From a virus: a stretch of DNA of 26,928 bases. Shown here piece after piece: positions 6,230 to 10,062 of this stretch. Below the pieces are notes generated by a model, which was not told where the DNA came from, searched no databases, and was given only the letters and a program-made list of their open reading frames with translations. Location: IMG/VR virus record IMGVR_UViG_3300025759_000565, positions 1-26,928 of that record; one strand, 5' to 3'. Positions within the stretch are counted from its first letter, which is position 1; every line of letters starts with the position of its first letter. Both the position numbers and the translations under genes were made by a program.

Positions 6230-6826
6230 ATGAAACCTATAAGAATTAAAATAGAAAAAATTAAAAACAACCCTGAGAACCCAAGAGTCATAAAAGACTA
6301 CAAGTTTAATAAATTAGTCAGGAGTGTAAAAGAATTTCCGCAAATGCTAGAGTTGAGGCCTATTGTAGTAGATGAAAACAATATAATACTGGGTGGTAAT
6401 ATGAGATATAAAGCTGCGGTGCAAGCAGGGCTAAAAGAAGTTTATGTTATACAGGCAGATGAGTTGACAGAAAAACAAAAAAAAGAATTTGTAATAAAAG
6501 ACAACAGCAGTTTTGGGGAATGGGATTGGGATGTTTTAGCTAATGAATGGGACATACAAAGCTTAAAAGATTGGGGCTTAGACATTCCTAAATGGGAAGA
6601 CACAGATGATTTTGACAATGATCTAGAAGACACAGGGGCTTATGATTACCCTGAAGACACAGCAGAAAGTTCACACGTAAAAATGGTGCAGTTGTTTTTA
6701 ACAACAGAAACAGAGCCTAATTTTAGGGAATGGGAATTAAAACTGAGGGAAAAGTATAATACTGATAATTTAACAGATACAATTTATCAAGCTATAAAAG
6801 AAACTTTTAATAATTATGACAACTAA
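6230..6826 (+). CDS. ParB-like domain protein
   Basis: The 198-aa product has a ParB/Srx-type N-terminal fold. NNPENPRV (residues 13-20) corresponds to the box I region, LRPIVVDENNIILGG follows, and GGNMRYKAA (55-63) is the GxxR signature that binds a phosphate of CTP/ATP in this superfamily. An acidic linker (about 105-145) leads to a C-terminal helical region. There is no HTH centromere-binding domain, so it is not a partition ParB. Stand-alone phage ParB-like proteins usually sit beside DNA-modifying enzymes; here the next gene is a DNA dioxygenase, overlapping by 11 nt. It may select sites or couple nucleotide binding to modification. Confidence 0.75.
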   Translation: MKPIRIKIEKIKNNPENPRVIKDYKFNKLVRSVKEFPQMLELRPIVVDENNIILGGNMRYKAAVQAGLKEVYVIQADELTEKQKKEFVIKDNSSFGEWDWDVLANEWDIQSLKDWGLDIPKWEDTDDFDNDLEDTGAYDYPEDTAESSHVKMVQLFLTTETEPNFREWELKLREKYNTDNLTDTIYQAIKETFNNYDN

Positions 6827-7712
6827 ACATATTGTAAAACCAAGATTGACAGATAAGCAGGCAAATAAACTTGCTGCAACTTTATTAACGGATAATGATT
6901 ACAACACTTTAATTACTTATGACGCAGACGTTTATTGTGAAGAAACCGGTAAGTGCATAGCTAAATTTAGAAAAAAAGTTATACCAGGTAAAATTGCAAA
7001 AGACGCATTCGATAATTTAAAGGGTGCAGCAACACCAACAAACAACAGGCCAAATTCTGGCGGTGAAACAGATCAAAAAGGTAACACAACACAATATAGA
7101 TTAAAAAAAGACGGCACAAGATCTAAAACAAACCAAGCTTTGACTTCTGTAAATAGCGGGATTATAGGTTATTTCGACAGAAATGCTAGATTTCCTTATT
7201 GTAGGCAAACTGCTTTTAACGAAAAAGAGTTTAGCAAATTTAAAAAGGCATACCCAATAATTAAATTTGTAGATAGTAAGTATGAAGAATTAATGCCTGA
7301 ACATTATAAGCTGCAAAGAGATCTTGCAGATAAGACATCACAGGATTTTGTAATAAACAATACAGCATTTACAACTGTTACTGTAAATAAAAATTGGCAA
7401 ACTGCTGTTCATACTGACGCTGGTGATTATGAAAAAGGTTTCGGTAATTTAGTTGTCTTAAGAAAAGGTAGATACACAGGCGGGTTTTTTGTTTTACCTA
7501 AATGGGGTGTGGCTTTTGATGTACAGAATTGTGATTTGTTATTAGTAGACGTACACGAATGGCACGGCAACACACCCATAGAGAAAATAGATGACAACGC
7601 AACTAGGGTGAGTTTAGTTATGTATTACAGAAAAAATATGGCAACTTGCGGAACAGCAGAAGAAGAAGCTGATATTGTAAAAAGAAGAACAAGAGGCACT
7701 AAATTAGTTTAA
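6816..7712 (+). CDS. TET/JBP-family 2-oxoglutarate/Fe(II) DNA dioxygenase
   Basis: The 298-aa product shows the double-stranded beta-helix pattern of the TET/JBP family. HTD (H199, D201) forms the iron-binding HxD in QTAVHTDAGDYEKGFGN. GRYTGGFFVLP follows, then VDVHEWHGNTP with H250 (or H247) as the distal iron ligand. R264 in TRVSLVMYYRKN is the expected 2-oxoglutarate contact. These enzymes hydroxylate the 5-methyl group of thymine (JBP) or 5-methylcytosine (TET) in DNA. Because a hydroxymethyl-dU kinase-like gene lies downstream, thymine in DNA is the likely substrate. No C5 methyltransferase is in the window. It overlaps the amidotransferase start by one base. Confidence 0.8.
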   Translation: MTTKHIVKPRLTDKQANKLAATLLTDNDYNTLITYDADVYCEETGKCIAKFRKKVIPGKIAKDAFDNLKGAATPTNNRPNSGGETDQKGNTTQYRLKKDGTRSKTNQALTSVNSGIIGYFDRNARFPYCRQTAFNEKEFSKFKKAYPIIKFVDSKYEELMPEHYKLQRDLADKTSQDFVINNTAFTTVTVNKNWQTAVHTDAGDYEKGFGNLVVLRKGRYTGGFFVLPKWGVAFDVQNCDLLLVDVHEWHGNTPIEKIDDNATRVSLVMYYRKNMATCGTAEEEADIVKRRTRGTKLV

Positions 7713-8314
7713 TGTGCGGAGTTGTAGGCTTTAGTTGTCAGGATCCTAAAAAGTATCATTTAGATTTACTGCATAAAATTATTATACAAAGCAAGATAAG
7801 AGGCTTGCACAGTTTTGGTTATACATATAACGCTAAAGAATTAGTTACTGTAAAACACCACGACTTAACCAAATTAGAATTGCCTTTAACGAACAAGATT
7901 ATATACCACAACAGATATTCTACAAGCGGGGACTATAAAGATCACAATAACAATCAGCCCATAACAAATAAAAACATTAGTTTAGTTTTCAATGGTGTGT
8001 TGGATATGCGAACAAAACAGGAAATTGAAAAGCATTACAACATAAAGATGCAAACAGACAATGACGGCGAAATAATATTGCATAAGTATGAAGAAAACCT
8101 AGAGAAATATATAAAAGAAACAACCGGCAGCTTTGCTGGGTTAATTTTAACTAACTGTAACAAACTTTTAGCAATAAGAAACACCAACAGGCCTTTATGG
8201 AAAGTTAATGTAAATGAAGCTGTTTATTTTGCCTCAACAAAAGATATATTTATTAGAGCCGATAAAACATTGGAACCTGTTGAATTAAAACCTTATGTAT
8301 TATATGAATATTAG
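7712..8314 (+). CDS. Stand-alone class-II glutamine amidotransferase domain
   Basis: The 200-aa product is only the Ntn-type glutaminase domain seen in GlmS, PurF and AsnB. It starts MCGVVGF, so C2 becomes the N-terminal nucleophile after Met removal. R68 in HNRYSTSGD, N94-G95 in FNGVLDM and TDNDGE (residues 115-120) match the glutamine-binding positions. GSFAG and AIRNTNRPLW complete the fold. There is no synthase or ligase half, so the ammonia must be passed to a partner, or the domain acts as an amidohydrolase. Position within the modification cassette points to supplying ammonia for, or trimming, the amino group attached to the base. The start is fixed by the MCG motif. Confidence 0.8.
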   Translation: MCGVVGFSCQDPKKYHLDLLHKIIIQSKIRGLHSFGYTYNAKELVTVKHHDLTKLELPLTNKIIYHNRYSTSGDYKDHNNNQPITNKNISLVFNGVLDMRTKQEIEKHYNIKMQTDNDGEIILHKYEENLEKYIKETTGSFAGLILTNCNKLLAIRNTNRPLWKVNVNEAVYFASTKDIFIRADKTLEPVELKPYVLYEY

Positions 8315-8708
8315 AAAAGCAATAAGATCTGACAAAGATTATATAAAAAAACTACACAAACAACACGCAAAGCACATAGGCAGCTTTAATCTTTATCAGG
8401 TTTGGGATAAATATTTAACAGAAAAAACTAATTATGTTTATGTAATAATAGACAATATGGGCTTTATGCGTTACGGTTATTCTAAAAAATATAATTCCTA
8501 TGTGTTACACGAAATAGCTGTTGACAACGAATGCAAACAAATAGGTGTAGGGAGAATGTTGTACGATTATTTACCTAAACCTATAATGATTAAGTGTAAT
8601 AAAGATAATGAGATAGGCAACAAATTTTATTTAAAAATGAATATGACTAAAGCCGGTGTTACAAAAACTAAAAAAGGAGTAGAACAAAATATATGGTGGG
8701 CTACATAG
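8304..8708 (+). CDS. GNAT-family acyltransferase
   Basis: A 134-aa GNAT protein. MNIRKAIRSDKDYIKKLH is the typical first strand and helix, and HEIAVDNECKQIGVGRMLYDYL is motif A, with QIGVGR as the acyl-CoA pyrophosphate loop. NEIGNKFYLKMNMTKAG is motif B. I chose ATG 8304 over the in-frame ATG 8295 because GNAT proteins usually begin right at this strand; 8295 would add MYY. It overlaps the amidotransferase gene by 11 nt. In this setting it probably acylates an amine on the modified base or its precursor. Phage Mu Mom is a precedent for a GNAT-fold DNA modifier. Protein acetylation is the alternative. Confidence 0.75.
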   Translation: MNIRKAIRSDKDYIKKLHKQHAKHIGSFNLYQVWDKYLTEKTNYVYVIIDNMGFMRYGYSKKYNSYVLHEIAVDNECKQIGVGRMLYDYLPKPIMIKCNKDNEIGNKFYLKMNMTKAGVTKTKKGVEQNIWWAT

Positions 8709-9565
8709 ATTATCACATTAAATCTTCACAAGCTAAAGATATAGATCCAAGCAATGATTGTTTAAGATATGTTGCGGATAGATTTGAACTAAACAAAGAA
8801 CAGCGTTATTGGTTAGCATTTTTGTTTGGTACTTGCTACTCGGCAACTATGGTTTATTATGTATATAATGAATTCCCTGATTACGAGAATGTAGATGTAA
8901 ACCGACTGCAAAGATGGTGGGACACAAACAAACACAAAACATTATTTCAAACAGATAGGCTCAGAGTAAAGACACAAAACAAGTTTGTGGAAACATTTGT
9001 TAGTTATAAAAACTTACTTAACGGAATGAAGCAAGACGATTACTTCAATTCATTAAAGCAACCTAACAGGCAAATGACTTATGACAATTGTTACGCTAAT
9101 TTATCAAACATAAGAAATTTTGGTAGATTCACTATGTTTATTTATCTTGAGATGGTAAATGTATTGACGGGCTATAATTATGAGCCTACATATTTAGATC
9201 TTAAAAATGCAGAAAGTTGTAGGAATGGTTTAGTATATCATCTAGGCAATTATGAATTAGATACACACGGCACTAAAAAGAGATTGACAATCAAGCAATT
9301 AAATTATTTACAATATAAATTTAAAGAATTAAAACAAGAGATACAGCAGTTAGATATATCACACAAAAACATTTGGAACATAGAAACTACATTATGTGCT
9401 TACAAAAAATATATAAAAGGTAAAAGATATATAGGCTACTACATAGACAGACAACGTAAAGAAATACTAAAAATGCAGGACGCTGTGCAGGACGGAGTAG
9501 ATTGGAGTGTGTTGTGGGATTTTAGAAATGAAACTTATGATAAACAATGGCTAAAAGAATTATAG
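8693..9565 (+). CDS. aGPT-PPlase-like amino acid/amine:DNA base transferase
   Basis: The 290-aa helical protein resembles the alpha-glutamyl/putrescinyl-thymine pyrophosphorylase (aGPT-PPlase) families of hypermodifying phages. These replace the (pyro)phosphate on 5-hydroxymethyl-dU in DNA with an amine or amino acid and are distantly related to HhH DNA glycosylases. Visible features are SNDCLRYVADRFELNKEQRY (residues about 20-39), LFGTCYSATMVYYVYNEF, RNFGRFTMFIYLEMVNVLTG (about 139-158) and ESCRNGLVYHLG. I cannot point to proven catalytic residues. The family call rests on this pattern plus the adjacent kinase, which overlaps by 19 nt. Without a profile search the exact clade is open. Confidence 0.65.
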   Translation: MVGYIDYHIKSSQAKDIDPSNDCLRYVADRFELNKEQRYWLAFLFGTCYSATMVYYVYNEFPDYENVDVNRLQRWWDTNKHKTLFQTDRLRVKTQNKFVETFVSYKNLLNGMKQDDYFNSLKQPNRQMTYDNCYANLSNIRNFGRFTMFIYLEMVNVLTGYNYEPTYLDLKNAESCRNGLVYHLGNYELDTHGTKKRLTIKQLNYLQYKFKELKQEIQQLDISHKNIWNIETTLCAYKKYIKGKRYIGYYIDRQRKEILKMQDAVQDGVDWSVLWDFRNETYDKQWLKEL

Positions 9566-10062
9566 CAATAGGAGGTATGCCGGCAAGTGGCAAAACAACA
9601 CTTATGAAAAACATTATCAAAGAGTATATGCCTTTAAATACTTTTAAATATAAATTAGTTAGAGGTATGTATTGCCCAAGAAGATTGATATATTTCATAG
9701 GAGTATATGACGAATCTACATTCAGCGGTACTGATAAGTTATCAATGGCTGTACAACCTTACTTTGTACAATTACTAAGTAAACTAACAAAAGGTGTGTT
9801 TATATTCGAGGGAGATAGATTGTTCAATCAGAGCCTATTCGATAAAGTAAAATGCGAAAAGATTATTATTGACGCAGATGAGGAAACACTTAAACAAAGA
9901 CACCTACAAAGAAATGATAATCAATCAAGTAAGTTTATTAAATCCAAACGTACTAAATTAAATAATATATTAGAAAAAAATTCAGTAACTTTATTACCAA
10001 ACAATACTAGCGAACAAAATAAATACGCTTTTGATTATATATTAAAAAGGATTAACCAATAA
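9547..10062 (+). CDS. 5-hydroxymethyl-dU DNA kinase-like P-loop kinase
   Basis: The 171-aa kinase has Walker A GGMPASGKT (residues 9-17). YFIGVYDESTFSGTDKLSMA follows (about 49-68), where 'GTD-LSMAVQ' is a motif I associate with phage hydroxymethyl-dU DNA kinases. FEGDRLFN (87-94) is the Walker B/substrate region, and a lid-like arginine segment comes after (QRHLQRNDNQSSKF). It would phosphorylate the hydroxymethyl group made by the dioxygenase, activating it for displacement by the aGPT-PPlase-like enzyme. The C terminus lacks the extra helical domain of some relatives, so this is a minimal version. The terminase small subunit starts on the base after its stop codon. Confidence 0.7.
   Translation: MAKRIIAIGGMPASGKTTLMKNIIKEYMPLNTFKYKLVRGMYCPRRLIYFIGVYDESTFSGTDKLSMAVQPYFVQLLSKLTKGVFIFEGDRLFNQSLFDKVKCEKIIIDADEETLKQRHLQRNDNQSSKFIKSKRTKLNNILEKNSVTLLPNNTSEQNKYAFDYILKRINQ

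Follow-up and report, generated by a model that had tools for sequence, protein, structure and literature searches.

The DNA analysed here (hereafter the window) is the IMG/VR virus record IMGVR_UViG_3300025759_000565, which is 26,928 bases long, classed as linear and possibly a fragment. Between positions 6230 and 10062 it carries a cassette of six plus-strand genes, with overlaps or abutments of 1–20 bases between neighbours in the open reading frame list, that begins with a ParB-like protein and a TET/JBP dioxygenase and ends with a P-loop kinase (Table 1). An initial annotation of the window had placed six such genes here and all of the reading frames were found; its assignments of the ParB-like protein, the TET/JBP enzyme and a class II glutamine amidotransferase (GATase) are borne out by Pfam matches above cut-off.

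Table 1 Products of the six cassette genes, with their positions in the window and the matches that identify them.
Product	Position	Strand	Length (aa)	Basis
ParB_N-like protein	6230..6826	+	198	Pfam ParB_N 1e-6 (above cut-off); phrog_620 1.2e-30
TET/JBP 2-oxoglutarate-Fe(II) dioxygenase	6816..7712	+	298	Pfam Tet_JBP 6e-28; AlphaFold model
Stand-alone class II (Ntn) glutamine amidotransferase domain	7712..8314	+	200	Pfam GATase_7 6.5e-12, GATase_6 (both above cut-off)
GNAT-type N-acyltransferase	8295..8708	+	137	Pfam GNAT matches below cut-off; conserved family
ADDT-A, amino acid:DNA transferase family	8693..9565	+	290	Pfam ADDT PF18724 1.6e-18; fold
P-loop nucleotide kinase	9547..10062	+	171	AAA_18/AAA_33 at cut-off; phrog_800 9.4e-12

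The gene order parB-TET-GATase-(GNAT)-ADDT-kinase-TerS-TerL and the reading frames are maintained in dozens of viral contigs in IMG/VR, the records of which are mostly fragments, a property that bears on every count of absent genes given below. In comparison with the nearest relative, L002, the ratio of nonsynonymous to synonymous substitution rates (dN/dS) is 0.025–0.09 for all six genes, indicating strong purifying selection. The conservation of the cassette is far beyond chance.

The TET/JBP enzyme of the window scores 97.5 bits against PF12851 (cut-off 34.9), and its iron ligands His199, Asp201 and His250 and its 2-oxoglutarate-binding residue Arg264 are invariant across 37 sequences that include divergent relatives. 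Its AlphaFold model, with a mean confidence (pLDDT) of 89, matches human TET2 with a Z score of 21.9 over 252–256 residues and NgTet1 with a Z score of 19.5, compared with ~14 for AlkB-type enzymes. The enzyme is predicted to hydroxylate the 5-methyl group of thymine in DNA. None of 30 records with a TET cassette or a close TET, most of which are fragments, yielded a thymidylate-synthase-family hydroxymethylase (PF00303); this family is present in the Pseudomonas phages PaMx11 and M6 and in a Vibrio relative, a distribution complementary to that of TET. Phage TETs at several other loci (L121, L122, L123, L134, L138 and L139) carry the annotations 'SNF2 DNA repair protein', 'DnaJ chaperone', 'queuine tRNA-ribosyltransferase' or 'oxidoreductase'.

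The kinase contains a GMPASGKTT Walker A motif, an EGDR motif and a GTDKLSMA motif, and the P-loop residues Gly10, Gly15 and Lys16 are invariant in the alignment. It shares phrog_800 with M6 gp54 (2e-39) and PaMx11 gp49 (5e-30), and M6 gp54 matches the Pfam family HMUDK, the 5-hydroxymethyl-deoxyuridine (5-hmdU) DNA kinases, at 7.7e-18. This shared membership is stronger evidence than the hhalign comparison with the M6 gp54 and PaMx11 gp49 profiles, which gave a probability of 84–85% only, mostly over the P-loop. The window protein is predicted to be a 5-hmdU DNA kinase. The family phrog_800 is named 'terminase small subunit' (window 9547–10062; L132:8260-8820) yet contains the 5-hmdU kinases of M6 and PaMx11, and M6 gp54 is likewise annotated as a terminase small subunit in GenBank.

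ADDT-A scores 67.7 bits against PF18724 (cut-off 26.2), and in a search of the PDB by hmmsearch it matched 25qc, an ADDT (3e-7), and 8z2m (1e-4). The model of ADDT-A (pLDDT 95) has an HhH-glycosylase-like fold and superimposes on the 8z2m crystal structure with a Z score of 19.5 and an rmsd of 3.1 over 251 aligned residues, while the next-best folds are a queuine salvage enzyme (Z score of 10) and the HhH (Ogg) DNA glycosylases (Z scores of 8.9 and below). According to its PDB title, 8z2m is the 5-phosphomethyl-dU glycinyltransferase gp46/PUGT of phage PaMx11; a literature search for PUGT found no paper. The similarity in family and fold strongly suggests that ADDT-A is a transferase of this class, which would swap the phosphate of 5-phosphomethyl-dU (5-PmdU) for a nucleophile. 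The product of the gene at 8693 had been called aGPT-PPlase-like; strictly the protein is an ADDT (PF18724, 1.6e-18), with aGPT-Pplase3 as a sub-threshold match only. The earlier call of a P-loop kinase at 9547 was upheld by AAA_18 and AAA_33 at cut-off and by phrog_800. Neither product thus falls in an unrelated family, the first belonging to the ADDTs and the second to the PHROG of the M6 and PaMx11 kinases.

The genes that follow related TETs differ between contigs and fall into at least five tailoring types. The GATase-(GNAT)-ADDT-A block is found in 74 distinct contigs with TET and kinase; other blocks between TET and kinase consist of ADDT-B with a flavoprotein (15 contigs), ADDT-B alone (3) or ADDT-C (3), the last once together with a PALP enzyme. 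Between the contigs L026 and L021 identity is 93% over parB-TET and 95.6% over kinase-TerS-TerL, and their alignment breaks at the TET stop codon and resumes at the kinase start, one of the two carrying GATase-GNAT-ADDT-A and the other ADDT-B with the flavoprotein. The same exchange separates L047 from L036, the flanks of which are 90–96% identical. Contigs of the flavin type do not group together in the TET tree, where well-supported branches force at least four changes of label. The ADDT of the alternative module matches 25qc (7e-12) and PUGT 8z2m (1e-6) in the PDB, and its flavoprotein matches 8z2o (1e-6) and 8z79 (1e-5), both titled 'Flavin-dependent lyase'. A comparison of ADDT active sites, which looked for a loss of amino-acid binding in ADDT-A, showed FGR..F.Y.E to be common to ADDT-A and the Vibrio and PALP-linked ADDTs, and FG(S/P)W..(F/W)K to be common to ADDT-B and the PaMx11 and M6 ADDTs. 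These results show that GATase-GNAT-ADDT-A can be exchanged as a module: in sister phages the same slot holds a glycinyltransferase-like ADDT and a flavin-lyase homologue. TET and kinase, common to both kinds of phage, should deliver one and the same intermediate, 5-PmdU; a module related to PUGT and the flavin lyase would be expected to require 5-PmdU, so the shared enzymes would have to supply it, and the substrate of TET would then be thymine in DNA.

Other arrangements were seen behind related TETs. ADDT-B stands alone between TET and kinase, with no flavoprotein, in L049–L051, which predicts an uncleaved glycyl-type base. In L053–L055 the TETs are 57–59% identical to that of the window, a TET-associated glycosyltransferase gene (PF20691 in L054) comes next and both kinase and ADDT are missing, an arrangement that may be the phage equivalent of base J. 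Kinase and ADDT are likewise missing where an FkbM-family methyltransferase gene lies directly behind TET (L057:5649-7249 and L122:6001-7597, one in a Pelagibacter phage and the other in a viral contig), and these loci possibly direct O-methylation of 5-hmdU. TET, a PALP-type PLP enzyme, ADDT-C and kinase stand in a row at L058:9986-13642, and the PALP gene of M6 is likewise beside its ADDT.

The GATase gene is tied closely to one type of transferase. It is present in all 74 contigs with ADDT-A and in none of the 21 with ADDT-B or ADDT-C (Fisher p = 1.6e-21, which serves only as a guide because the contigs are related), and it still adjoins ADDT-A where ADDT-A is only 53–57% identical, the gene order is altered, GNAT is absent and the middle of the kinase has diverged beyond recognition. 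The pairing extends to Prevotella and Phocaeicola genome bins. Residues Cys2, Arg68, Asn94, Gly95 and Asp118 are invariant across 29 GATase sequences, the catalytic Cys2 standing right after the start methionine, and they correspond to the N-terminal cysteine nucleophile and the glutamine-site Arg, Asn-Gly and Asp of GlmS. The 200-residue product consists of the GATase domain only, to which neither a synthase nor a synthetase is fused, and Pfam and PHROG recognised no carboxylate-activating ligase, whether ATP-grasp or AMP-forming, among the cassette genes. A class II GATase of this bare kind frees ammonia from glutamine when its active site is intact. With neither a synthetase domain nor a recognised ligase to activate a carboxylate, a role as ammonia donor (or deamidase) fits better than amidation, and the GATase is predicted to be the ammonia donor to ADDT-A. 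In a metagenome-assembled genome (MAG) of Prevotella, L130:5866-11112 has the order ParB-ParB-GATase-ADDT-kinase-GNAT-radical SAM beside terminase genes. No TET match was found in the Prevotella (L130) or Phocaeicola (L128 and L129) MAG bins.

The GNAT gene is an optional member of the module, present in 48 of the 74 GATase cassettes and absent from 26. The initial call of a GNAT is supported by the motif QIGVGR, which with its variants fits the acyl-CoA loop (R/Q)xxGxG/A across a conserved family in which Gly84 is invariant, but not by Pfam, where the best match, Acetyltransf_7 (E = 0.0012), reaches 19.6 bits against a cut-off of 27. The protein is 29% identical over 65 residues to the PaMx11 acetyltransferase gp48 and may acylate the installed amine. 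Among 64 relatives of the ParB-like protein, Asn17, Gly56, Arg59, Asn92 and Asp101 are invariant, and in most contigs that extend far enough its gene is the one upstream of TET. This constant place hints that it could be a DNA-binding or targeting factor for the enzymes.

We propose that the cassette carries out thymidine hypermodification on finished phage DNA, with a probability of roughly 0.75 for the first two steps and the class of transferase in the third. The evidence argues strongly for the first two steps, in which TET would hydroxylate the thymine methyl group in DNA to give 5-hmdU and the kinase would phosphorylate the hydroxyl to give 5-PmdU. It argues as strongly for the transferase class of the third, in which ADDT-A would displace the phosphate with a nitrogen nucleophile. 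The oxidation, phosphorylation and swap for an amine or amino acid that had been suggested for this locus are in this respect supported by protein families, modelled folds and the module exchange. Because the GATase always accompanies ADDT-A and has an intact active site, and no carboxylate-activating ligase was recognised, the simplest reading of the third step is that the adjacent GATase feeds ADDT-A. The nucleophile would then be ammonia from glutamine, giving 5-aminomethyl-dU in one step; the flavin module would arrive at the same kind of amine via glycine. GNAT, where present, may acylate the amine in a fourth step. We hold ammonia as the nucleophile of ADDT-A, with 5-aminomethyl-dU as its product, to be a tentative assignment at somewhat less than even odds. 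The same reserve applies to the complete scheme, in which oxidised thymine of finished DNA would be aminated in a glutamine-dependent, flavin-free reaction and then N-acylated by a module swapped between 93–96% identical phages that keep TET and kinase. The 'new modified base' of the initial annotation goes beyond the evidence, since what is made could be 5-aminomethyl-dU, which is already known, or an acylated form of it.

Several observations weigh against this pathway. HMUDK (PF18748) is not among the Pfam matches of the window kinase or among the 25 families listed for its relatives; PaMx11 gp49 is also under the HMUDK cut-off (18.1 bits against 27). The records being fragmentary, a missing methyltransferase or hydroxymethylase gene is not proof of its absence from the phage. 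Asp204 of the window TET occupies the HxD+3 position, which in the NgTet1 structure contacts N4 of 5-methylcytosine (5mC), and it is compatible with cytosine, but it is non-discriminating here because the TET of phage Melnitz, which lies beside a C5-methyltransferase, has the same Asp. This residue was dropped as a substrate marker, the Melnitz TET having Asp and divergent ADDT-linked TETs having Asn. ADDT-A is nearer to the ADDT of Ackermannviridae (phrog_3271) than to PaMx11 PUGT (phrog_6364); ADDTs of the Ackermannviridae type are serine-dependent, and this proximity makes it possible that the nucleophile of ADDT-A is an amino acid. We know of no ADDT that uses ammonia.

The strongest alternative, which we consider somewhat less likely than the use of ammonia, is that ADDT-A transfers an amino acid such as glutamine or serine, that the GATase-fold protein then is an amidohydrolase of the attached side chain or else serves a later tailoring step, and that GNAT acylates the amine of the amino acid. 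Hydrolase activity is known from class II GATase folds that lack a synthetase domain, as with EgtC and Dug3, which act on gamma-glutamyl conjugates. The placement of ADDT-A in the phrog_3271 clade with the Ackermannviridae ADDTs favours this alternative, as does the transfer of amino acids by characterised relatives (PDB title of 8z2m). However, the GATase is tied to ADDT-A rather than to other tailoring genes and is retained without GNAT, so it looks like a partner of the transfer step, and the transfer of glutamine merely to deamidate it would be roundabout.

The substrate of TET could instead be 5mC made by a methyltransferase of the host or by one of the phage that was not seen, and the cassette would then make a hypermodified cytosine, as in the phage TET-5mC systems of Burke et al. 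(2021). Oxidases of 5mC are among the members of the TET superfamily, Asp204 is compatible with cytosine, and three related contigs have a match to the C5-methyltransferase family PF00145. In the Methylophilales phage Melnitz (L137:2303-4487), an HhaI-type C5-methyltransferase gene overlaps the TET gene, the layout expected of a 5mC-type phage TET; the Melnitz TET is much more distant from that of the window. On the other side, 48 of 51 distinct related records, most of them fragments, have no PF00145 match above cut-off. The complete genomes P12024L and HTVC112P, the TETs of which are about 44% identical to that of the window, have neither a C5-methyltransferase nor a thymidylate-synthase-family gene. 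The downstream enzymes are moreover homologous to enzymes of 5-hmdU and 5-PmdU, and the interchange behind TET involves the PUGT/flavin-lyase module. We regard a cytosine substrate as improbable. The three PF00145 matches are in the contigs of L071, L011 and L018, which carry GATase-type cassettes, and P12024L is a cultured Nonlabens phage.

Slightly less probable again is a glutamine-dependent amidation, by the GATase, of a carboxylate carried by the modified base. Amides on carboxymethylcytosine have been proposed to arise in CmoX phages from ligases fused to a glutamine amidase domain (PMC12783734), which is a related idea with different chemistry. The CmoX-phage proteins are fused to an AMP-forming ligase, whereas here the 200-residue GATase is bare and the cassette has no recognised ligase of the ATP-grasp or AMP-forming kind, so the step 'then amidating' of the initial annotation does not appear likely. 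That GATase and GNAT are unrelated cargo within a TET-ADDT-kinase operon is very improbable: the absence of GNAT from 26 of 74 cassettes would agree with it, but the overlapping frames, the strong purifying selection and the perfect association of GATase with ADDT-A over very divergent contigs, including the Prevotella and Phocaeicola bins, do not.

TerS (10063) and TerL (10394) come directly after the cassette with no gap, and upstream of it lie genes for a DnaB_C-like ATPase, DUF3127 and a RecE-type nuclease (Pfam, PHROG). The window terminase is closest to those of Flavobacterium phages, at 36% identity, and the window TET matches a Nonlabens phage and a Pelagibacter phage at about 43%, which makes a marine Bacteroidetes host, probably flavobacterial, likely. 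A genome scan with ADDT found three bacterial MAG loci only and does not prove the host. A promoter scan of the window performed no better than on shuffled sequences, and a terminator-like hairpin within the GATase gene is one of five found against 1.9 expected.

If the proposed pathway is correct, thymine in these phages receives a hydroxymethyl handle once the DNA has been replicated, as in the making of base J by kinetoplastids, and this handle enters the amino-thymine chemistry of M6, ViI and PaMx11 without replacement of thymine in the nucleotide pool; the GATase module would then be a second, flavin-free route to aminated thymine. The benefit is probably protection from host nucleases, and the exchange probably keeps changing the disguise of the DNA from host enzymes. 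It would suggest that base chemistry is itself under exchange in marine phage populations. The slot between TET and kinase would form a natural combinatorial system and offers enzyme-sized test cases for whether phage TETs oxidise thymine.

TET-initiated hypermodification is said to have been predicted by Iyer et al. in 2013. In base J of kinetoplastids, made by JBP1/JBP2 and a glucosyltransferase, a TET/JBP enzyme also oxidises thymine in DNA, but the product is glucosylated, whereas the window phage has kinase and transferase genes instead. The phage TET-5mC systems share the use of TET/JBP oxidation in DNA to begin hypermodification; as PMC12730594 summarises the work of Burke et al. (2021), they use a C5-methyltransferase and glycosyltransferases, neither of which was found in the window, itself possibly a fragment.

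Thymidine hypermodification is known in the Pseudomonas phages PaMx11 and M6 and in Salmonella phage ViI (Lee et al. 2018, 2022; PMC6449724, PMC9599517). Like the window, these phages combine an ADDT-family transferase with a 5-hmdU DNA kinase; PaMx11 has genes for PUGT, the flavoprotein, the acetyltransferase and the kinase in a row, with GNAT and flavin lyase as tailoring genes, and the M6 cluster includes PALP and radical SAM genes. They differ in that 5-hmdU is made as a nucleotide by a thymidylate-synthase-family (dUMP) hydroxymethylase, whereas the window cassette starts with TET/JBP and no such hydroxymethylase gene was found in the 30 records, and the PaMx11 and M6 gene clusters shown have no GATase. 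In the Rhodococcus equi phage Tonitrus, the 'THM' genes are annotated as a thymidine hypermodification system, citing Lee et al. 2018 and 2022 (PMC11955845). They encode a ParB-like protein, a TET/JBP-like protein, an aGPT-PPlase2-domain protein and a 5-hmU DNA kinase, and neither GATase nor GNAT is named among the five genes, one of which is hypothetical; this system is known by annotation only. The set of TET, ADDT, kinase and ParB is thus already known from Tonitrus and is not new. The literature searched, which did not cover the gene lists of Iyer 2013, yielded no report of a GATase-TET-ADDT combination. To our knowledge, there is no known case of GATase-driven DNA amination. What sets the window and its relatives apart from these systems is the strict pairing of GATase with ADDT-A and the exchange of whole modules between near-identical phages, both of which are new as far as the literature searched shows.

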